From Halomonas sp. LR3S48 (GTDB lineage: Bacteria > Pseudomonadota > Gammaproteobacteria > Pseudomonadales > Halomonadaceae): DNA of 64,000 bases. A model generated the notes under the pieces. The model saw only the letters and a program-made list of their open reading frames with translations, did no database searches and was not told the DNA's origin. The stretch lies in assembly GCF_025725665.1 (NCBI RefSeq), contig NZ_CP107009.1, positions 1,612,001 through 1,676,000 of the forward strand, written 5' to 3'. A program made the translations under genes and the position numbers. Positions 36,032-49,230 of the stretch are shown here, piece by piece. Numbering within the stretch: position 1 is the stretch's first letter; each line of letters opens with the position of its first letter.

Positions 36032-36107
36032 GTCCCATTCGTCTAGTGGTCCAGGACACCGCCCTTTCACGGCGGGAACAGGGGTTCGAACCCCCTATGG
36101 GACGCCA
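36032..36107 (+). tRNA. tRNA-Glu (UUC), copy 1
   Basis: 76 nt with encoded CCA. Acceptor GTCCCAT / ATGGGAC, anticodon loop CTTTCAC (UUC), T-loop TTCGAAC. First of three Glu copies alternating with tRNA-Gly. Confidence 0.97.
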
Positions 36108-36165
36108 CTCGTTTCATCGCTGGTTCAGCAGGTGCCGGAGTACGGGACTGAAGTGCGGTATGAGT

Positions 36166-36240
36166 GCGGGAATAGCTCAGTGGTAGAGCATCGCCTTGCC
36201 AAGGCGAGGGTCGGGAGTTCGAATCTCCTTTCCCGCTCCA
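36166..36240 (+). tRNA. tRNA-Gly (GCC), copy 1
   Basis: 75 nt with encoded CCA. Acceptor GCGGGAA / TTCCCGC, anticodon loop TTGCCAA (GCC). Identical to the other two Gly copies in the array. Confidence 0.97.
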
Positions 36241-36257
36241 GCTTCAGCGCCAGTTGC

Positions 36258-36333
36258 GTCCCATTCGTCTAGTGGTCCAGGACACCGCCCTTTCACGGCG
36301 GGAACAGGGGTTCGAACCCCCTATGGGACGCCA
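36258..36333 (+). tRNA. tRNA-Glu (UUC), copy 2
   Basis: 76 nt, identical to copy 1, with encoded CCA. It starts only 17 bp after the first tRNA-Gly, so processing from a common precursor is expected. Confidence 0.97.
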
Positions 36334-36373
36334 TCTTCCGGTTGCATCGCTGATTGCATAGACTTGCGTGTGT

Positions 36374-36448
36374 GCGGGAATAGCTCAGTGGTAGAGCATC
36401 GCCTTGCCAAGGCGAGGGTCGGGAGTTCGAATCTCCTTTCCCGCTCCA
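36374..36448 (+). tRNA. tRNA-Gly (GCC), copy 2
   Basis: 75 nt, anticodon GCC, encoded CCA; identical to copy 1. It lies 40 bp after the second tRNA-Glu. Confidence 0.97.
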
Positions 36449-36491
36449 TCATGTCCAGAGATTTGGAGTGAGCGCACTGTCTGGCTGCTGC

Positions 36492-36567
36492 GTCCCATTC
36501 GTCTAGTGGCCTAGGACACCGCCCTTTCACGGCGGGAACAGGGGTTCGAACCCCCTATGGGACGCCA
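36492..36567 (+). tRNA. tRNA-Glu (UUC), copy 3
   Basis: 76 nt, encoded CCA. It differs from copies 1 and 2 at two D-loop positions (GTGGCCTAGG instead of GTGGTCCAGG); all stems and the anticodon are intact. Confidence 0.97.
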
Positions 36568-36612
36568 CCTTTCGGTTATACTGCATGGGCAGGCACAACC
36601 GATACCGATCAA

Positions 36613-36687
36613 GCGGGAATAGCTCAGTGGTAGAGCATCGCCTTGCCAAGGCGAGGGTCGGGAGTTCGAATCTCCTTTCCCGCTCCA
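36613..36687 (+). tRNA. tRNA-Gly (GCC), copy 3
   Basis: 75 nt, anticodon GCC, encoded CCA; last intact tRNA of the array. It is followed directly by GTTTTCTT and two tandem units that repeat its 3' end. Confidence 0.97.
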
Positions 36688-40801: not shown

Positions 40802-40889
40802 GGAGAGGTGTCCGAGTGGTCGAAGGAGCACGCCTGGAAAGTGTGTAAGTCGAAAGGCTTCGAGGGTTCGAATCCCTCCCTCTCCGCCA
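40802..40889 (+). tRNA. tRNA-Ser (GGA)
   Basis: 88-nt class II tRNA with a long variable arm. Acceptor GGAGAGG / CCTCTCC, anticodon loop CTGGAAA (GGA), T-loop TTCGAAT and encoded CCA. Confidence 0.97.
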
Positions 40890-40901
40890 CAGAATAGAGA
40901 A

Positions 40902-40928
40902 AAGCCGCTGATTTCAGCGGCTTTTTCT
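40902..40928. terminator. Terminator between tRNA-Ser and the MobA-like gene
   Basis: Stem AAGCCGCTG / CAGCGGCTT with loop ATTT, followed by TTTCTTTTT on the plus strand and TTTCTCTATTCT on the minus strand. It is bidirectional. Confidence 0.9.
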
Positions 40929-40930
40929 TT

Positions 40931-41542
40931 TTAGTCGAGTCCGGCCCCATACCCCAGGAGATCCTCCCGGGTATCGACATCCCGGCAGACGCCGGCATCA
41001 TCGACCGGCATGACTCGATAGCGCTCGATGTGCCGCTGGATGACGCCGTTTGCGCCGCTATCGCCATCCAAGGCCGCCAACTCCGGCCAGAAGTCACGAC
41101 CGAAGAGCACCGGATGACCGGGCTGCCCCCGATAAGAGGGGCGCAGGATGCTGGATCGGGTCGCATGCCGTTGCAGAGTGTGAAGCGTCTCGAGGCGGAT
41201 CGAGGGCATATCGCCGAGCAAGATGGCCACGGCCTCTACGTTCGTCAGGGCGTCGGCGCGGTCGAGAGCGGTGATCGCTTCGCCGATGCTGGTGCCCAAC
41301 CCGCGCTGGGCGTGGCGTACATTGATGACGGGCGTTTCCCGCGACAGGGCCAAGGCAACTGGCTCTTCGCCCTGGCGCAGAACGACACGCAGCAAGGAAA
41401 ATGCCTCTCCCGCTCGCTCCACCGAAGCGGCCAGGCAAGGGCGTCCGTCTGGCAACGGAGCCAGGCGCTTGTCGGCGGCCCCGAAACGGCGCGAGAAACC
41501 GGCGGCAAGCACAATGGCAACGACAAGCCCCGCGTCTTTCAC
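40931..41542 (-). CDS. MobA/MocA-like nucleotidyltransferase
   Basis: A 203-aa NTP-transferase-3 protein. AIVLAAGFSRRFGAADKRLAPL is the nucleotide-binding loop, LLGDMPSIRLETL carries the metal-binding GDMP, and QPGHPVLFGRDFW follows. Relatives make molybdopterin cytosine dinucleotide or its guanine analogue. No molybdenum enzyme is encoded nearby, so the product is not assigned. I chose a GTG start because GGAGG sits 8 bp upstream; a GTG-ATG pair just 5' of that site would start six codons earlier and include it. Confidence 0.8.
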   Translation of the reverse strand: MKDAGLVVAIVLAAGFSRRFGAADKRLAPLPDGRPCLAASVERAGEAFSLLRVVLRQGEEPVALALSRETPVINVRHAQRGLGTSIGEAITALDRADALTNVEAVAILLGDMPSIRLETLHTLQRHATRSSILRPSYRGQPGHPVLFGRDFWPELAALDGDSGANGVIQRHIERYRVMPVDDAGVCRDVDTREDLLGYGAGLD

Positions 41543-41634
41543 ATGGGTACCCTCCATCACTTGGTGCCGGTGAGCTGAGAGTGACGCGGCGATCGACTCG
41601 ATTAAGCCCGGCAGGTCGCTAGTGTCTATGAGTA

Positions 41635-42156
41635 TCAGCCATGGGAGGTAACCTCGTCATCGATACCGTGGCGCAGGCGTGGCAGAGCGCGGGCGGCATC
41701 CAGCAGGAACTGCAGGGCGAGCATTGTGAAGCCGATGGGCAGAAGTGCATAGGGAAAGACCATCGGTGTGCCCAGCGAGCTCGAGACGCGCTCGCCGTAC
41801 TCGAAGGCCTGCAGTGCCATGATGCCCCCTCGCCACACCATGATGGCGCAGAACAGCGCGCCGAGCAGGCCGGTGACGACGTCGATCGCGGCGCGGCTGC
41901 GCGGCGGCAGCTTGTCCTTGAAGAAGGTGATACGGATATGCGCGTCGTGACGCTGGGCTTCGGCGGCACCGATCACGGCCAGGTAGACCAGCAGGAAGGA
42001 GTTGATCTCCAGGCTCCAACTGGTCGGGGCGGCGAAGGCATAGCGCATGATGGCGTCGTAGCAGATCGACACCATCATGAACGCCAGCACCGCCATCGAT
42101 GTCCAGCGCAGGACGGCCAGAAGGCCGTCCCAACTGCGCGTGGCGGTAGCAGTCAT
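41635..42156 (-). CDS. dctQ: TRAP transporter small permease (DctQ-type)
   Basis: Small integral-membrane subunit of 173 aa with four helices. The family segment MRYAFAAPTSWSLEINSFLLVYLAVIGAAEA and the following basic loop HIRITFFKD are clear. GAGGAG precedes the ATG. It is the last gene of the M-P-Q order (dctP lies 10 bp upstream), unlike the more common P-Q-M. Confidence 0.9.
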   Translation of the reverse strand: MTATATRSWDGLLAVLRWTSMAVLAFMMVSICYDAIMRYAFAAPTSWSLEINSFLLVYLAVIGAAEAQRHDAHIRITFFKDKLPPRSRAAIDVVTGLLGALFCAIMVWRGGIMALQAFEYGERVSSSLGTPMVFPYALLPIGFTMLALQFLLDAARALPRLRHGIDDEVTSHG

Positions 42157-42166
42157 GTGGCGCTCC

Positions 42167-43213
42167 TCATGCCTCGCCCAGGGCCAGTGCGATGGCGCGG
42201 TTGCCGACCTCTTCGCCGACTTCCTCCTTCCAGAGGTCCCAGACCGCCTGGACGCCGGCGTTGAACGTCTCGATGTCCTCCTCGGTGGGCTCGATGATCT
42301 CGATCCCGGCTTCCTCGACTTGCGGCCAGTATTCGTTGGGATAGATGTCGTTGTTGCAGTGCTCGATGAAGTTCTCGTCGTACCAGTCGGCGGCCTGTTG
42401 CAGGACGCCGCGCACGTCGTCATCGAGGTTGTCCCAGGTATCGCGCAGCATGAAAGGCGCCACCGAGAAGCCGGTGATCGGCAGCTTGTAGCAGTATTTG
42501 AGCTGCTCCTGGAGGCTGCGTCCGATGATCGTCGAGATGTTGAAGATGCCGGCATCCACGGTGCCACGCTGCAGTGCCATGTAAGTTTCCGAGGAGGGGA
42601 TACGGGTTGCCCCCACGTTGTAGGGTTCGAAGGCCTGGGTGGCCTCGAAGCCGACGATGCGCACCTTCTTGCCGCGTACCTCGTCGAGGCTGCGGATGGG
42701 ACTCTCCTCGGTGCTCCACAGGTATTCCGGCTCGAGGATGCCGCCGCCAGAGGTGAGCATGTAGAGGTTCTCCTCGGCCAGCACCTCATTGATCAGCTCC
42801 ATCAGCGGGCTGCCCTGGCGCAAGCGCTCCGGGTGCCGATAGAGCTCACCCACCACTCCGGGCAGGCCGGTCACACCGAGAATGGGAATCGAACGGGTGA
42901 TATAGGAGAAGGTGTGGAACATGAAGTCGATGCTGCGCGCGCGCAGCGCCGGCAACTGTTCATCCACCTTGAGCAGTTGGCCGGAGTCATAGAATTCCAC
43001 CGACAGCGCGTCGCCGCCGTTCTCCTGGAGCATTTCCACGAAGCGGTTGGAACCGTAGGTCAGTGCCTTGTAGGAGTCGGGCAGGTAGGTGACGCCGGTG
43101 AGGGTGGTAGCGGCATGGCTGTGAGGGGCCAGCAGGCTCTGGGTACCGAACAGGGTGGCGCCGGCGGTGGCGAAAGTGCCGTACTTGAGGACTTGGCGGC
43201 GGGACAGTGTCAT
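42167..43213 (-). CDS. dctP: TRAP transporter periplasmic substrate-binding protein (DctP-type)
   Basis: Periplasmic solute receptor of 348 aa. It opens with a Tat signal (MTLSRRQVLKYGTFATAGA, twin Arg in SRRQVLK), so it is exported folded. The DctP core includes VRGKKVRIVGFEATQAFEPYNVGATRIP and the conserved Arg region GTVDAGIFN. A carboxylate substrate is expected from the family; the neighbouring CoA-transferase suggests an acid that is then CoA-activated. GGGAG precedes the ATG. Confidence 0.9.
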   Translation of the reverse strand: MTLSRRQVLKYGTFATAGATLFGTQSLLAPHSHAATTLTGVTYLPDSYKALTYGSNRFVEMLQENGGDALSVEFYDSGQLLKVDEQLPALRARSIDFMFHTFSYITRSIPILGVTGLPGVVGELYRHPERLRQGSPLMELINEVLAEENLYMLTSGGGILEPEYLWSTEESPIRSLDEVRGKKVRIVGFEATQAFEPYNVGATRIPSSETYMALQRGTVDAGIFNISTIIGRSLQEQLKYCYKLPITGFSVAPFMLRDTWDNLDDDVRGVLQQAADWYDENFIEHCNNDIYPNEYWPQVEEAGIEIIEPTEEDIETFNAGVQAVWDLWKEEVGEEVGNRAIALALGEA

Positions 43214-43270
43214 GGTGAATCTCCCGTTGTTGTTGTAGCGGTTCACTTCATTGACGTTGCTGCGCCGGGG

Positions 43271-44560
43271 CTACATCAGCCCCGGCAACCATAGGCTGAG
43301 GCTGGGCATGAAGACGAACAGCATCAGCACGAGGAACTGCACGGCGACGAAGGGTAGGGCGCTCTTGATGATTTCCTCCACCGAGAGTTCGGGGCAGACC
43401 CCGCGCAGGGCGTAGAGGTTGAGGCCTACCGGCGGCGTGACCACGGCGATCTCCAGGTTGAGCACCATGACGATGCCGAACCACAGCGGGTCATAGCCCA
43501 GGGCCGTGACCAGCGGCAGCAGTACGGGTGTCGTCACCACGATCAGCGAGACGGCATCGACGATCATGCCGAGCAGGATCAGCAGCAGCATGACCGCCAA
43601 CAGAATCGCCCAGGCGGGCAGGCCGGTAGCGGTGAGCGCCTCGGTGAGCAACTGGGGCACGCGCACCATGTTGAGGTAGTCGCCGAAGATCTTGGCGCAG
43701 CCGATGATCAGCAGAATGGCGCCGCTGATGCGGGCGGTGGTGCCGAGGATCTCCAGGAACTTGGCCCAGCTGAGGCTGCGAAACACCAGGGTAGCGATCA
43801 GGAAGGCGCCGGCGGCACCGATGCCGGCGGCCTCGCTTGGCGTGGCCAGGCCCGAGTAGATGGAACCCAGCACGGCGACCACCAGCAGGGCGGCGTGCCA
43901 GATATTGGCCAGGCTTGCCCAGCGCTGCGCCCAGGTGAAGCGCTCCTCGCTGGCCGGCGCCTCGGCCGGGTTGAGGCACACGCGAACGTAGATGAACAGC
44001 GACAGGGCCAGCGCCAGCACGATGCCGGGCACGATGCCGCCGATGAAGAGGTCGGCCACCGAGACGCTGGACACCGCACCGTAGATGATGAAGGGCACGC
44101 TGGGCGGAATCAGCATGGCGAGCGCGCCGGCACTGACCACGGCGCCAGCGGCCAGCGAGCGGCTGTAACCGCGCTGAAGCATCTGCGGCACGGCGATGGA
44201 GCCCACGGCGGCGACACCGGCGAGGCTCACTCCCGAGACGGCACCGAACATGGCCGAGGCACCCACCGAGGAGATCGCCAGGCTGCCGCGTAGCCAGTTG
44301 AGCCAGCGCACCGCGGCGGTGAACAGGCTCGAACCCACCGGTGTCGCCCCCAAGAAGTTGCCCATCAGGATGAACAGCGGCAGGGCGATCAACTCGAAGG
44401 CGTTGAGCTGACCGAACAGCGACGACGGGGCGAAGAAGAACGCCAGCGAGCCGCGGGCCATGTAGAGGCCGATCAGGCCCGATAACCCCAGGGCGAGGAA
44501 GATCGGAAAGCCGATCACGATCAGCCCTACGAGCACGAGCAGAACGATGACGGGGTCCAT
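43271..44560 (-). CDS. dctM: TRAP transporter large permease (DctM-type)
   Basis: Main transport subunit of 429 aa with about 12-13 helices, driving Na+ or H+ symport. Family segments: FELIALPLFILMGNFLG, GASAMFGAVSGVSLAGVAAVGSIAVP, AMLIPPSVPFIIYG, and near the end VTPPVGLNLYALRGVC. It begins 10 bp after the CoA-transferase stop, indicating one operon. Confidence 0.93.
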   Translation of the reverse strand: MDPVIVLLVLVGLIVIGFPIFLALGLSGLIGLYMARGSLAFFFAPSSLFGQLNAFELIALPLFILMGNFLGATPVGSSLFTAAVRWLNWLRGSLAISSVGASAMFGAVSGVSLAGVAAVGSIAVPQMLQRGYSRSLAAGAVVSAGALAMLIPPSVPFIIYGAVSSVSVADLFIGGIVPGIVLALALSLFIYVRVCLNPAEAPASEERFTWAQRWASLANIWHAALLVVAVLGSIYSGLATPSEAAGIGAAGAFLIATLVFRSLSWAKFLEILGTTARISGAILLIIGCAKIFGDYLNMVRVPQLLTEALTATGLPAWAILLAVMLLLILLGMIVDAVSLIVVTTPVLLPLVTALGYDPLWFGIVMVLNLEIAVVTPPVGLNLYALRGVCPELSVEEIIKSALPFVAVQFLVLMLFVFMPSLSLWLPGLM

Positions 44561-44570
44561 GGCGCCTTCC

Positions 44571-45788
44571 TCAGATCACACCATCGGCGCGCAGTGCGTC
44601 GATGGCTTCGGCGGTGAGCCCGATCCAGTCGGAAAGCACGGCCTCGGTGTGCTCGCCCAGCGCCGGGCCTACTTGCTTCACTCGACCCGGCGTCTCGGAG
44701 AGGCGCGGAAAGACGTTCTGCATGGGGAGCGGTTGGCCTTGGCGATCGGGGACCTCGACGATCGATTCGCGGGCCTGGAAATGTGGATCGTCGAGCATGT
44801 CGGGTGCGCGGAAGACGAGCCCTGCGGGGACCCCGGCTTCGGCCAGTATGTCGACGACCTGCTGGGCATCGTGCTGCCGGGTCCAGGCGGCGATCAGGTC
44901 GTCGATGGCCTGTTGATTGTCGCCGCGCGCCCGGTGGGTGGCGTAGTCGGGGTGATCGGCCAGGCGTGGCTGGCCCATGGCCTCGCACAGGCGCCGGAAG
45001 ACGGTGTCCTGGTTGGCGCCGATGATCACGTCGCGCCCGTCGCGGGCCGGATAGGCGTTCGACGGTGCGATCTTGGGCAGGAAGCTGCCGCTGCGCTCGC
45101 GCACCCTGCCGGCGCGGGCATACTCGGGGACCAGGCTCTCCATCATCGCCAGCACCGACTCGAAGATCGAGCTGTCGACGACCTGGCCGCGGCCGCTGCT
45201 TGCGCGCTGGTGCAACGCCATCATGGCGCCCAGTGCGGCGTGCAGGCCGGCCAGCGTATCGCCCAGGGAGATGCCAACGCGCACGGGGGGGCGGTCCGGA
45301 TAGCCGCTTACATAGCGCAGCCCACCCATCGCCTCGCACACCGAGGCAAAGCCGGCGCGCGAGGCGTAGGGGCCGTCCTGGCCGAAGCCGGTGACACGCA
45401 CCATCACCAGGCCGGGATTGCGGCGCGAGAGCTCATCGAAGCCCAGCCCCCAGCGCTCCATGGTGCCGGGACGAAAATTCTCGATGACGACATCGGCCTG
45501 GCTGGCCAATTCGCGCAAGAGTTCCTGTCCGCGCGGTTGGCGGAGGTCGACGGTAACGGACTTCTTGTTGCGGCCGATGACGTTCCACCACAAGGGCTCG
45601 CCGCTGGCAGGGTCCGCCTCGCCCCACTGGCGCATGGCATCGCCCTTGCCAGGAGGCTCGACCTTGATCACCTGGGCGCCGAAGTCAGCCAGTACCTGCC
45701 CGCAGTACGGGCCGGCGATCAACTGGCCCAGTTCGAGCACCTTGATGTCGTCGAGAGGTAGCGGGGATGTGTCGTCATGCGCAGTCAT
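44571..45788 (-). CDS. CaiB/BaiF family CoA-transferase (class III)
   Basis: A 405-aa class III CoA-transferase. DIKVLELGQLIAGPYCGQVLADFGAQVIKVEPP is the N-terminal signature. VVIENFRPGTMERWGL and GFGQDGPYASRAGF follow, and GRGQVVDSSIFESVLAM lies in the second half. It likely moves CoA from a donor such as succinyl-CoA to the acid imported by the TRAP system; the exact acid cannot be told. The start at MTAHDD lacks a strong ribosome site. It is first of the CoA-transferase-dctM-dctP-dctQ operon, 32 bp after the GntR gene. Confidence 0.9.
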   Translation of the reverse strand: MTAHDDTSPLPLDDIKVLELGQLIAGPYCGQVLADFGAQVIKVEPPGKGDAMRQWGEADPASGEPLWWNVIGRNKKSVTVDLRQPRGQELLRELASQADVVIENFRPGTMERWGLGFDELSRRNPGLVMVRVTGFGQDGPYASRAGFASVCEAMGGLRYVSGYPDRPPVRVGISLGDTLAGLHAALGAMMALHQRASSGRGQVVDSSIFESVLAMMESLVPEYARAGRVRERSGSFLPKIAPSNAYPARDGRDVIIGANQDTVFRRLCEAMGQPRLADHPDYATHRARGDNQQAIDDLIAAWTRQHDAQQVVDILAEAGVPAGLVFRAPDMLDDPHFQARESIVEVPDRQGQPLPMQNVFPRLSETPGRVKQVGPALGEHTEAVLSDWIGLTAEAIDALRADGVI

Positions 45789-45820
45789 TGTTGTTGTGTG
45801 CCTCTTTATGGTGTCCTGGA

Positions 45821-46534
45821 TCAGCCGGGAGATGCCTGTGGGGCGTCGGGCAAATCGGGGAAGCGTACATGCAAGGCCTGAGCGGCCAGCAGATGGGAGC
45901 GCATCACGTTTTCGGCCCATGTGGGACTGCCGGCACTGATCGCCTCGAGAATTTCACGATGGTGGCGCATGCTGCGGCGCAGGTTGGCGAGATCGTAGTT
46001 GCCGAAGTTGCGCCGGATCACCGAGGTCCGCACCACGCTGTCCAGCACCGCGGCCAGGCGTTGGTTATCGCTTGCGGCGATCAGCTCGCGGTGAAACTCA
46101 TGATTGAGGAGGGCGATTTCGTTACGCACCTCCGGCTCACGCTCGATGCGTTCGACGAGCTCTTCCATGCGGCTGGCCAGCTCTTCGAGATGCGCCAGAT
46201 GTGTCCGGTTCACCCGCTCGCTGGCAAGTCTTACGGCCATGGGCTCGAGCACCAGGCGCAACTCGAAGACTTCGCGGGCGTCCCTCTCCGTCCAGGCCAC
46301 TACCCGCGCACCATGATGCGGGATCGCTTCAAGCCAGCCCTCGGAGACCAGCTCACGCAGCGCCTCGCGAACCGGGGTACGGCTTACGCCTAGCTCGCGG
46401 GCGATACTCGCCTCGCGAATGTACTCCTGGGCCCGGTAGTGACCGTCGAGAATCCGCTGCTTGATCACGTTGTGGACTTCCGCGGTGGCGGTTCTCGCGA
46501 TCCGGGGTAGTTCTAACATGGTGGGTTGGTTCAT
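45821..46534 (-). CDS. GntR-family (FCD domain) transcriptional regulator
   Basis: A 237-aa regulator. The N-terminal winged helix reads IKQRILDGHYRAQEYIREASIARELGVSRTPVREALRELVSEGWL. An all-helical FCD ligand domain follows (about 95-220; ELRLVLEPMAVRLA, LNHEFHRELI, HHREILEAI supply the metal ligands). The start has GAGG 7 bp upstream, which overlaps a palindromic operator, implying autoregulation. It probably controls the adjacent CoA-transferase/TRAP operon in response to the imported acid or its CoA ester. Confidence 0.92.
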   Translation of the reverse strand: MNQPTMLELPRIARTATAEVHNVIKQRILDGHYRAQEYIREASIARELGVSRTPVREALRELVSEGWLEAIPHHGARVVAWTERDAREVFELRLVLEPMAVRLASERVNRTHLAHLEELASRMEELVERIEREPEVRNEIALLNHEFHRELIAASDNQRLAAVLDSVVRTSVIRRNFGNYDLANLRRSMRHHREILEAISAGSPTWAENVMRSHLLAAQALHVRFPDLPDAPQASPG

Positions 46535-46542
46535 CAATGCCT

Positions 46543-46562
46543 CAATATTGCATGCAATATTG
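46543..46562. promoter_or_regulatory. Palindromic GntR operator O1
   Basis: Perfect 20-bp palindrome CAATATTGCATGCAATATTG. A minus-strand -10 TATAGT (complement of 46563-46568) abuts it, so the site covers the start of the GntR transcript and touches its ribosome site. It resembles the TTGTATACAA-type sites of FCD GntR proteins. Confidence 0.75.
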
Positions 46563-46609
46563 ACTATAGACGCAGGATTGCGCGGCCTATTACTCGACCT
46601 TGGTCGAAA

Positions 46610-46621
46610 ATTGCATGCAAT
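46610..46621. promoter_or_regulatory. Palindromic GntR operator O2
   Basis: Perfect palindrome ATTGCATGCAAT, the same core (TTGCATGCAA) as O1, 60 bp upstream. The helical-phase spacing would allow cooperative binding or a loop. A weaker third match, TTGCATACAG, is at 46680-46689. Confidence 0.65.
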
Positions 46622-46769
46622 CTCTCCTGGGCGTCTCATCGTACCTGACCCCCTCGACAGCTGGTCGGGGTTCTATTGCTTGCATACAGTGCTCGGCGAG
46701 CCAGGGGGATTGTGATAATGGACTTAGGCAAACTCATGCTGTCGTCGTAGGTAATTTCACTACGCCGCT

Positions 46770-46787
46770 TGTCAGAAATTTCCTACA
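46770..46787 (+). promoter_or_regulatory. GacA-box-like palindrome upstream of the small RNA
   Basis: TGTCAGAAATTTCCTACA matches the known GacA/UvrY upstream activating sequence pattern TGTAAG-N6-CTTACA at 10 of 12 fixed positions. It lies about 60-70 bp before the probable RNA 5' end, similar to RsmY-type promoters. It also forms one arm of a 12-bp inverted repeat with 46747-46758 (one mismatch). Confidence 0.6.
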
Positions 46788-46841
46788 AAGGGGCATATCC
46801 CAGGTTAACTGCATTTTGCGGTACAGCTGCCATGCTGTACT

Positions 46842-46967
46842 CAAGGGCAAGGAAGCTTCGCAAGGAAGCCGGGTCAGGACGACGCAACGACCAAGGATGC
46901 CCGGTCAGGATGACTGGGATAGCCGCAAGGACGCAAGAGTTCGCCCGGCCGCAAGGCCGGGCTCTTT
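46842..46967 (+). ncRNA. Putative CsrB/RsmZ-family CsrA-sequestering small RNA
   Basis: About 125 nt packed with CsrA-type sites: AAGGA at 46849, 46862, 46893 and 46927, CAGGA at 46875 and 46906, and a TGGGA at 46915. At least three lie in hairpins: GCTTC-GCAAG-GAAGC, GTC-AGGAC-GAC, and CCGGTC-AGGAT-GACTGG with GGA exactly in the loop. The RNA ends in a strong rho-independent terminator. The family (CsrB, RsmX/Y/Z) binds and titrates the translational regulator CsrA/RsmA. No protein frame fits here. The 5' end is an estimate; no strong -35/-10 pair was found. Confidence 0.75.
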
Positions 46968-46971
46968 CGTT
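46943..46971 (+). terminator. Terminator of the putative Csr-type RNA
   Basis: Perfect 8-bp stem GCCCGGCC / GGCCGGGC with a GCAA tetraloop, followed by TCTTTCGTT. Confidence 0.88.
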
Positions 46972-47319
46972 GAGGGAGCGCTAAGCCAATTTTCTCTCTT
47001 GCCCTTTGGTCTGGCAGCCAATTAACTCCAACCTGTTGTTTGAAAATAGTTAACACCCTCCGTTGCTATGGCCGATGGTTCCCCGGCCCGAATTCCAAGC
47101 TTCGAAAAGCCGTCATTGCATGGCGGATTCTTTGCTTTCGCTTCATTGCAACTGAGGTGATGATGGAGAGTCGGCTGCCATGGGAACGAAGGGGCGGCGC
47201 CGATAGAGCAGGGAGTTGAAGGAGGGTGACAGCGCAAGCGTGGCGCGAGTGGTTGCTCTCGATCTGTTATTTTAGATTTCTCTGCTATAACTAAGCGTAT
47301 CCTTCCAACGGGTGACGGG
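46972..47319. other. Non-coding gap before the second GGDEF-EAL gene
   Basis: 348 bp without a credible gene. The last 70 bp are A+T-richer and contain TATAAC at 47286-47291, a possible -10 element for the downstream gene; no convincing -35 was seen. Confidence 0.5.
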
Positions 47320-49230
47320 ATGTCCAATTCTGACTGGCTGATCAAGGCTCGTCGGTTCGCTGTTGCCGGTCTATGGGCCGGCCTGCCGTCGTTCGCTTCC
47401 GCTTCAGCAGAGGGCGTCGTCATGCCCACTGCCGGCTGGGGCGTGGTGTTGCTGGTTGTGGTGTCGGTTCTGGTGCTGGCAGGGCTGGCCTATAGACGTC
47501 GACTTTTGAGTGAAGTCGAAAGGCTGCGGGCCAGCCACGAAGAGCTGACGACCATCCTCGACAGCGTCGACGCCTGCATCTACGTCAAGTCGAACGACTT
47601 TCGCTATCTGTATGTCAACCGCAAGGGCAGCGAGATCGTGGGCCTGCCGGCCGAGGCGGTCCTGGGCAAGACCGACAGTGACATCTTCGATTCTGTCACG
47701 GCAGCGGAGCTGCGCTTCAACGACCGACGAGTCCTGGAGCAGGGCGAGAAAGTCGTGGTGGAAGAGGGATACGTGAAGGCCCAGGACGAAACCGTCTTTA
47801 CCTTTCTGTCAATCAAGCTGCCGCTGCGTAGAGCCGATGGCACGATTCGTGCGCTCTGCGGTTTCTCCACTGACGTTACCGAGTACCGCGATATCCAGGA
47901 GAGCAAGCATCGGCTGACATTCTACGATTCGCTGACGGGGCTGCCCAACCGGCGCCTGCTGCTCGACCGGCTGGAAATGGTTGTCAAGGGCTCTCGGCGC
48001 ACTGAGCGCTACGCGGCCCTGCTTTTCATCGATCTGGACGACTTCAAGGTCGTCAACGAGACCCAGGGCCTGCAACGGGGCGACCGATTCCTGCGCCAGG
48101 TGGCGCAGAGGCTGGAAGAGGTCGTGCGCGAGAGCGATACCCTGGCGCGGCTGGGGGCCGATGAATTCGTACTGATGATCCACGACCTCGGCCTCGACGT
48201 GGAGCAAGCGGCCCATGCCGCCGAACGCGTGGCCGAGAAGCTGTTGGGGCAGATCGCGAGCGCCCAGACCGACGACGACCAGGCACTGACCCTGCCCATT
48301 ACGGCGAGTATCGGCATCTCCTTGTTTGCCAACGGCCAGGCGAACGTCGACAGTGCCATGCGTCAAGCGGACATTGCCTTGCAGCAGGCCAAGGCGGCGG
48401 GTGGCAACACCCTGCGCTTCTTCAATGCCGACATGCAGGCCGACGTGATGGAGCGAGTCCATCTCGAGGCCGATCTGCACCAGGCGCTGGCGCGAGATGA
48501 GCTGCGCCTGCACTATCAGGTTCAGGTGGATAATCGGACCGAGGTGACCGGCGTCGAGGCATTGATCCGCTGGGAGCACCCGCGGCGTGGCCTGGTGCCG
48601 CCTGGCCTTTTCATTCCGCTCGCCGAGAAGAATCGGTTGATTCTGCCGATCGGCTACTGGGTGCTCGAGACTGCTTGCCGCCAATTGGCCGCTTGGGCGC
48701 AGGAGAACGGCAAGGAGAAGCTGACGATCGCCGTCAACGTCAGCTCGGTGCAGTTTCACCAGCCCGACTTCGTTGCCCGGGTTCAGCATACCCTGGAGGA
48801 AACGGGCGCCAATCCTGGTCGGCTGGTGCTGGAAGTCACCGAGAGCCTGCTGATGGAAGAGCCGGAGCGTGTGCGCAACATCATGCTGCGCCTGAGCAAG
48901 CTCGGCATACGTTTTTCCCTGGACGATTTCGGTACCGGCTACTCATCGCTGAACTACCTGAAGCGGCTACCCCTGGATGAACTCAAGATCGACAAGTCGT
49001 TCATCGATGGCGTGCTCGACGACCCGGTGGATGCCGCCATCGTCACCACCACGATCACCCTGGCGAACAGTCTCGGTCTCGAAGTGACGGCCGAAGGCGT
49101 CGAGACGGAGGCGCAACACCGCTGGCTGCTGGAACATGGCTGCGAAGCCTTCCAGGGGTATCTGTTCGGACGTCCGTTGGCCCTGGAAGAACTGGCTTTG
49201 ACCGAGCGGGCTTGCTCCCTTCCCACCTGA
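47320..49230 (+). CDS. PAS-GGDEF-EAL protein with degenerate GGDEF motif
   Basis: A 636-aa inner-membrane protein. It has an N-terminal hydrophobic stretch, a second helix (GVVLLVVVSVLVLAGLAY, about 40-58) and a PAS domain (about 65-195). The GGDEF domain motif is LGADEF near residue 279 (Ala for the second Gly), so cyclase activity is doubtful. The EAL domain is intact (VEALIRWEHP near 413; DDFGTGYSSLNYL; AEGVET), so phosphodiesterase activity is likely. This resembles proteins in which GGDEF has become a GTP-sensing module. A purine-rich site (GGGTGACGGG) precedes the ATG. It lies 350 bp downstream of the Csr-type RNA. Confidence 0.9.
   Translation: MSNSDWLIKARRFAVAGLWAGLPSFASASAEGVVMPTAGWGVVLLVVVSVLVLAGLAYRRRLLSEVERLRASHEELTTILDSVDACIYVKSNDFRYLYVNRKGSEIVGLPAEAVLGKTDSDIFDSVTAAELRFNDRRVLEQGEKVVVEEGYVKAQDETVFTFLSIKLPLRRADGTIRALCGFSTDVTEYRDIQESKHRLTFYDSLTGLPNRRLLLDRLEMVVKGSRRTERYAALLFIDLDDFKVVNETQGLQRGDRFLRQVAQRLEEVVRESDTLARLGADEFVLMIHDLGLDVEQAAHAAERVAEKLLGQIASAQTDDDQALTLPITASIGISLFANGQANVDSAMRQADIALQQAKAAGGNTLRFFNADMQADVMERVHLEADLHQALARDELRLHYQVQVDNRTEVTGVEALIRWEHPRRGLVPPGLFIPLAEKNRLILPIGYWVLETACRQLAAWAQENGKEKLTIAVNVSSVQFHQPDFVARVQHTLEETGANPGRLVLEVTESLLMEEPERVRNIMLRLSKLGIRFSLDDFGTGYSSLNYLKRLPLDELKIDKSFIDGVLDDPVDAAIVTTTITLANSLGLEVTAEGVETEAQHRWLLEHGCEAFQGYLFGRPLALEELALTERACSLPT

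Follow-up and report, generated by a model that had tools for sequence, protein, structure and literature searches.

The gap between a GntR-family gene and a PAS-GGDEF-EAL gene in Halomonas sp. LR3S48 raises the question of whether it encodes an RNA and, if so, what that RNA does. An initial annotation had read it as a CsrB/RsmZ-like small RNA (sRNA) with a GacA-box-like promoter site. We followed up this reading in the window, by which we mean the whole stretch of 64,000 nucleotides analyzed (NZ_CP107009.1, positions 1,612,001 to 1,676,000 of the forward strand), and in related genomes; window coordinates are used throughout. Our analysis indicates that the gap very probably holds a stand-alone sRNA gene whose product would soak up the global regulator CsrA.

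Layout of the predicted sRNA gene

The sRNA gap and its flanking genes comprise the following features.

45821-46639, minus strand: GntR-family gene, the upstream edge of the gap
46747-46763, plus strand: distal GacA-box-like palindrome GTAGGTAATTTCACTAC, degenerate and weak here, recognized by eye 23 bp upstream of the proximal box
46770-46787, plus strand: predicted proximal GacA/UvrY box TGTCAGAAATTTCCTACA
46795-46808, plus strand: conserved promoter block ATATCCCAGGTTAA (consensus TTATCCCAGGTTAA), between the box and the -10 element
46828-46836, plus strand: extended -10-like element TGCCATGCT, with similar letters at the equal place in relatives (by eye)
46843-46970, plus strand: predicted CsrA-titrating sRNA; 123.5 bits with covariance model R1, model match 46836-46970
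46845-46858, plus strand: hairpin 1, GGGC-AAGGAA-GCTT, weak in the window copy (family helix 1)
46871-46885, plus strand: hairpin 2, GGGTC-AGGAC-GACGC, one mismatch in the window copy (family helix 2)
46900-46918, plus strand: hairpin 3, CCCGGTC-AGGAT-GACTGGG, in the minimum-energy fold (family helix 3)
46943-46962, plus strand: intrinsic terminator stem GCCCGGCC-GCAA-GGCCGGGC, then TCTTTCGTT; in the predicted fold (family helix 4)
47320-49230, plus strand: PAS-GGDEF-EAL gene (Pfam), outside the sRNA, a downstream neighbor conserved in synteny

We place the start of the sRNA near 46843 from the position of the -10-like element, and a simple scan for sigma-70 promoters found no site at the sRNA. 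Seven GGA triplets start at 46851, 46864, 46877, 46895, 46908, 46917 and 46929. Six of the seven form AAGGA or CAGGA and span 46849-46931, which bears out the earlier count of at least six A(A/G)GGA or CAGGA motifs within about 85 nt: we counted six in 83 nt. The cluster lies beyond chance, since none of 2000 dinucleotide shuffles of 46640-47319 reached six motifs in 85 nt (best 5); shuffling just the 135-nt core gave one such case in 2000. When the looser motif A(N)GGA was counted per 100 nt, the sRNA was the top place on the plus strand of the window (6, next 4), and the best count on the minus strand was 5.

The hairpin CCGGTC-AGGAT-GACTGG described by the initial annotation is present at 46901-46917, with six pairs including one G-U. 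Of the two further GGA hairpins it listed, one, GTC-AGGAC-GAC, exists but is short, whereas the first is weak, and the predicted fold has a GCTTC-GCAAG-GAAGC stem in its place. The terminator, called strong, indeed has a stem with eight G-C pairs (46943-46962), yet the T-run after it, TCTTTCGTT, is poor. Two properties of the window copy count against a CsrA sponge: its fold energy is unremarkable (z = -1.66, with 13 of 200 shuffles equally low), and only two of its seven GGA sites are predicted to be mostly unpaired (>0.8). The case for a sponge therefore rests on the family rather than on the fold of this copy. Across 91 members, GGA bases are predicted to be unpaired more than other G and A bases (0.69 versus 0.46).

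Family, covarying structure and class membership

Rfam model RF00166 (PrrB_RsmZ) matched the sRNA over its full length at 30.8 bits (E 2.9e-5), under its gathering score of 44, and at the gathering threshold Rfam reported tRNAs only across the window, with no CsrB, RsmX or RsmY. The Rfam check put forward with the original call thus came out in part: the RsmZ match is full length but sub-threshold, and no CsrB, RsmX or RsmY match appeared in 46500-47200 up to E 10. In other sRNA copies the RsmY model gave 18-20 bits (5 loci searched). The sRNA is not a member of RF00166, since the curated cut-off was tested and not reached. That cut-off missed the window copy together with copies in all 17 of 17 related loci, showing how easily CsrA sponges are overlooked because their sequence drifts. 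At E 0.001, RF00166 found no match in the source genome and gave matches in 2 of 14 control genomes where none was expected, so we rebuilt the family from blastn relatives.

A blastn search with 46750-46990 against 58 genomes gave matches in eight, including the source genome and all of the same genus; matches confined to the terminator (among them L016, L019 and L037) were discarded on inspection by eye, being taken for chance hits or shared terminators. From 19 aligned members we built R1, which finds seven copies in the source genome at 137.3, 123.5, 122.8, 122.2, 69.1, 61.4 and 53.1 bits, the next match there scoring 18.8 bits. A stretch of 1.6 kb (1526847-1528445) contains four of the seven, and the window holds a single match, at 46836-46970; the seven copies are a feature unseen from the window alone. 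One divergent copy (C1:1236816-1236974 of the source genome G000, locus L031) has a GacA box of 7/12 and an interrupted terminator, and may be decaying or differently controlled. Matches to the Guanidine-II riboswitch above its gathering score lie near sRNA copies in the source genome and one relative (L030:1012-1061, L009:1343-1393).

R1 matched 29 of 90 same-genus genomes at E <=0.01, the source included. Clear copies (best E <1e-10) occur in 24 of the 90, again counting the source, with 1-12 matches each and 12 in both G012 and G096; in five other matching genomes (G014, G018, G021, G059, G075) the model cross-matched a second RNA. In an order-wide sample, 12 of 293 genomes matched: the source, eight more of its family and three from other families, among which the best match scored 73.4 bits. 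Absences are soft, since the genus-wide searches with R1 and with R2, the model of the second RNA, applied stricter filters and limited scoring to the top 34-36 of as many as ~3000 candidates per genome, and the order-wide R1 search scored the best 11 per genome. Twelve stretches in named records carry a close variant (10 Billgrantia spp., one Litchfieldella xinjiangensis and one Halomonas MAG), a list that possibly omits records near the source genome. A plasmid search gave no match.

The alignment of these relatives supports a structure of three GGA hairpins and a terminator. Alignment A1 comprises 19 members (18 distinct); A2 comprises 91 matches (89 distinct) from 42 sources, the window plus 41 fetched loci, and being fitted to the model leans towards it. 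Its counts include L083:6231-6357 on the plus strand (26.9 bits), which overlaps a real copy on the opposite strand and is probably spurious, and the weak L089:2255-2362 (33.9 bits). In A1, 97.3% of cells are paired, versus a mean of 91.3% when shuffled and at most 49.0% when slid, and 10 of 23 pairs show two-sided changes; the model-fitted A2 shows them in 19 of 23. By helix, the paired cells and the two-sided changes in A2 (A1) are 97.2% and 4/4 pairs (1/4) for helix 1, 94.3% and 5/5 (4/5) for helix 2, and 96.9% and 6/6 (5/6) for helix 3. The comparison across relatives proposed at the outset thus favored the sRNA: the GGA hairpins are kept with compensatory changes, and the GacA box is often kept.

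This pattern bears on two other readings of the region. Two ORFs cross the sRNA, 46769-46984 (71 codons) and 46600-47025 (141 codons), and would fit a short protein-coding gene. We rejected this reading, which is almost certainly wrong, on three grounds: members are 135-146 nt long and differ in length by other than multiples of three, their stems vary by paired changes, and the ORFs run through both promoter and terminator. The RNA might instead pair with mRNAs through Hfq, its GGA content being incidental; some sRNAs do combine protein titration with pairing, and the part of PMC4211561 consulted mentions one example. We consider this highly improbable here, as the conserved columns are the GGA sites, the stems and the terminator, and the stems change in a compensatory manner.

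The CsrA-titrating family proposed by the initial annotation is supported by the Rfam match, the covarying GGA hairpins, the GacA boxes, and the presence of csrA and gacA in the genome. We found several features of the class: a cluster of AnGGA motifs in a non-coding RNA, an intrinsic terminator, an upstream GacA box, encoded CsrA and GacA and, at the level of the family, GGA exposed in conserved hairpin loops. Judged from sequence, the RNA is very likely a new GacA-controlled CsrA sponge of the CsrB/RsmZ type that would work as RsmZ and CsrB do.

Promoter, regulators and neighboring genes

The UvrY/GacA box is an 18-bp inverted repeat of the consensus TGTAAG-N6-CTTACA, according to the passages available from PMC4682653, PMC8523701 and PMC3171408. 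We scanned the 12 fixed positions of this consensus, which was taken from other bacteria, upstream of the 90 of 91 A2 members with enough upstream sequence. Boxes of at least 10/12 occurred in 47 of 90 regions. The controls gave 3 in 900 shuffles and 4 in 88 regions located a further 600-730 nt up, a few of which may belong to neighboring copies; the 43 regions below 10/12 are a point against. All but one of the 47 boxes have their center in one of two zones ahead of the model start, at 56-59 nt or at 79-83 nt, and in 30 of the 90 members the best-scoring box is centered at 79-83 nt. The proximal box TGTCAGAAATTTCCTACA, centered 57 nt before the model start, confirms the GacA-box-like site first noted (46770-46787, 10 of 12 consensus positions), and it sits at a fixed distance that is also seen in relatives.

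The block TTATCCCAGGTTAA was found at 10/14 or better in 59 of 90 upstream regions versus 8 of 450 mononucleotide-shuffled controls, with the qualification that it was defined from 19 members that are among the 90 tested; 54 of the 59 matches lie 41-44 nt ahead of the model start. When at most one mismatch was allowed, the GacA-box pattern gave 47+40 sites across the genome versus 38+41 for a reversed control, and as these sites are hardly enriched we did not use them. Exact TGTMRG-N6-CYTACA occurs at nine genome positions: four at sRNAs, three at vgrG genes, one before a NERD gene and one before a CHASE4-GGDEF gene. At the three vgrG-type genes (L098, L099 and L104; G000:C1:306664, 388306 and 2000203) the exact boxes are centered 127-138 nt upstream, and each gene has a GGA at its ribosome-binding site.

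The source genome encodes one CsrA (PF02599) and a GacA/UvrY that scores 287.3 bits with NF007018 against a curated cut-off of 280; the gene after gacA reads as uvrC by eye. Its best BarA/GacS candidate, a BarA-like hybrid kinase, scores 624 bits against a cut-off of 890, which we list as a point against. In our proposed mechanism, phosphorylated GacA/UvrY would bind the palindrome at 46770-46787 and switch on transcription from ~46843 to the terminator at 46943-46970, yielding a stand-alone non-coding RNA of ~125 nt. With its six or seven GGA sites, part of them exposed in hairpin loops, this RNA would bind several CsrA dimers and draw CsrA off mRNAs, as CsrB and RsmZ do. The seven homologous copies together would set the amount of CsrA sequestered, perhaps with a division of labor among them.

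A CsrA sponge might also be driven by a regulator other than GacA acting at the same palindrome. GacA binding is deduced from the consensus of other bacteria, and three of the seven source-genome copies are without a good box (8, 8 and 7 of 12, a point against, versus at least 10/12 in the other four). We nevertheless regard another activator as unlikely, because the box conforms to the 18-bp inverted repeat of UvrY/GacA and keeps a fixed distance, and because a GacA above the curated cut-off is encoded.

Genes of the GGDEF-EAL type are often CsrA targets, and the PAS-GGDEF-EAL gene starts 350 nt downstream of the sRNA on the same strand. Protein matches to it (74.5-85.3% identity) occur in L080, L081, L082, L091 and L005, where it neighbors sRNA copies: two copies precede the gene in each of the first four, and a single copy does so in L005, whose sequence begins at the end of a contig. 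The region could therefore be a 5' leader through which CsrA controls this gene in cis via GGA. This was rejected as very unlikely because the terminator closes the RNA, six other copies lie elsewhere in the genome, and related locus L079 keeps the sRNA from box to terminator at 80% identity with no tblastn match to the gene. The last finding also implies that the sRNA does not serve the GGDEF-EAL gene only. A GacA-switched, CsrA-sequestering sRNA, one of seven copies, stands as the overall best explanation, which we hold with strong confidence.

In L080, L081 and L091, the homologue of the stretch ending at the window's tRNA-Ser (40802-40889) directly precedes the sRNA copies. In the window, 40893-46738 (~5.85 kb, with TRAP-transporter, CoA-transferase and GntR genes) separates the two; none of the ten loci compared gave a blastn match to it, an absence that rests on the TRAP and GntR queries plus blastn. 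The segment is probably an insertion beside the tRNA gene, as judged from its lack of a match at the corresponding place in three relatives. Elsewhere in the window, three alternating tRNA-Glu(TTC)/tRNA-Gly(GCC) pairs stand in tandem at 36032-36687, and the matching stretch of L081 gives several overlapping alignments.

In a FastTree phylogeny, the window copy groups with copies of L079, L080 (4917), L091 (1967), L005 and L081 (6120) at support 0.90-0.93; this group excludes the L082 copies as well as the second copy in each of L080, L081 and L091. The six other source-genome copies each have their nearest relative in another genome, suggesting duplications that predate the species; the tree is built from a single short RNA, and support is weak (0.18) for at least one of its deeper nodes. 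The high copy number, together with the grouping of the window copy with syntenic copies of other species, makes this a good case for asking why many sponges are kept.

A second GGA-hairpin RNA and relation to known systems

The five genomes that cross-matched R1 led to a second GGA-hairpin RNA, which lies in the source genome at C1:2057831-2057974 on the minus strand (L137:1432-1575; 64.8 bits with R2), downstream of a SpoU-type methylase gene. Among 90 same-genus genomes, 81 have an R2 match (a single one in 77, two in 4), and these include 23 of the 24 with clear R1 copies (all but G099). Two-sided changes occur in 21 of 41 pairs in a model-fitted alignment of 26 fetched members. None of these 26 has an upstream GacA box above 8/12; they instead carry GTCA(T/C) repeats with an 11-bp period. 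A three-heptamer Pho-box score averages 16.0/21 upstream of the second RNA, versus 11.2 both for shuffles and for the regions before the 91 R1 members, and reaches at least 15 in 23 of 26 members, 0 of 520 shuffles and 0 of 91 R1 members.

At up to two mismatches the Pho-box pattern occurs genome-wide 31+36 times versus 25+25 in the control, and the source-genome copy of the second RNA has a Pho-box-like site with two mismatches. Given this modest excess and the two-mismatch site, the Pho-box reading rests on conservation and not on the single site. The source genome encodes PhoB (362.8 bits, cut-off 296.2), and a Pho box with one mismatch lies 51 bp ahead of the predicted start of phoB. A one-mismatch box also precedes a response regulator gene near 691717, whose best, sub-threshold match is PmrA, making other OmpR-type regulators rivals to PhoB. 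We offer a second sponge-like RNA under PhoB control as a lead; among the papers listed, the sections seen of PMC10418997 and PMC8041468 hold nothing on PhoB control of a CsrA sponge.

A wider model, which we put forward tentatively and rate somewhat below even, is that two kinds of sponge run CsrA at once. A multi-copy set with GacA boxes (7 here, up to 12 in relatives) would act alongside a single-copy sponge (81 of 90 same-genus genomes) controlled from a PhoB-type tandem box, through which phosphate starvation would act directly on CsrA. The GacA boxes of the vgrG genes, with the GGA at their ribosome-binding sites, would in addition give GacA a direct route to type VI secretion. Beyond the sponge call itself, our analysis adds the multi-copy family with the architecture of its promoters, the syntenic locus, and a second sponge of the Pho-box-like kind.

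A close group for comparison is Halomonas anticariensis. A 2020 table in PMC7366521 lists its GacS-GacA system, with CsrA in brackets and the sRNA as 'Unknown'. We treat a link between that system and the copies described here as a lead: they suggest where to look for its Gac sRNA, a question that is now testable. Among the literature matches listed, including the portions seen of PMC7366521, PMC12889724, PMC13414033, PMC8523701, PMC4682653, PMC3171408 and PMC2375449, there is no report of a Halomonas Csr/Rsm sRNA, and Halomonas is absent from the main text of the prediction paper PMC5568370.

The sRNA resembles Pseudomonas RsmZ/PrrB (RF00166) in size, in its layout of GGA hairpins and linkers, in its terminator and in the full-length covariance-model match, but differs in scoring 13 bits under the curated cut-off and in having many copies per genome. 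In Pseudomonas, a GacA box lies upstream of RsmZ-type genes. An upstream palindrome of rsmX/Y/Z is mentioned in the portion seen of PMC2375449. For Marinomonas mediterranea, the text available from PMC8523701 reports CsrB and CsrC, whose prediction relied on a GacA box, on ANGGA motifs and on a terminator, and RNA-seq showed their dependence on the BarA/UvrY-like pair PpoS/PpoR. The Halomonas sRNA shares these three features, a likeness at the level of description; M. mediterranea has two such RNAs, and Halomonas sp. LR3S48 seven. Multi-copy sponges in Gac systems are also listed in the table of PMC7366521 for Azotobacter vinelandii (RsmZ1-7 and RsmY1-2) and P. syringae (RsmX1-5, RsmY and RsmZ). 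The Halomonas set is like these in being multi-copy and differs in that those RNAs carry RsmX/Y/Z names and here one model finds all seven copies, with up to 12 matches per genome in relatives, in a comparison of sequences made via Rfam only.
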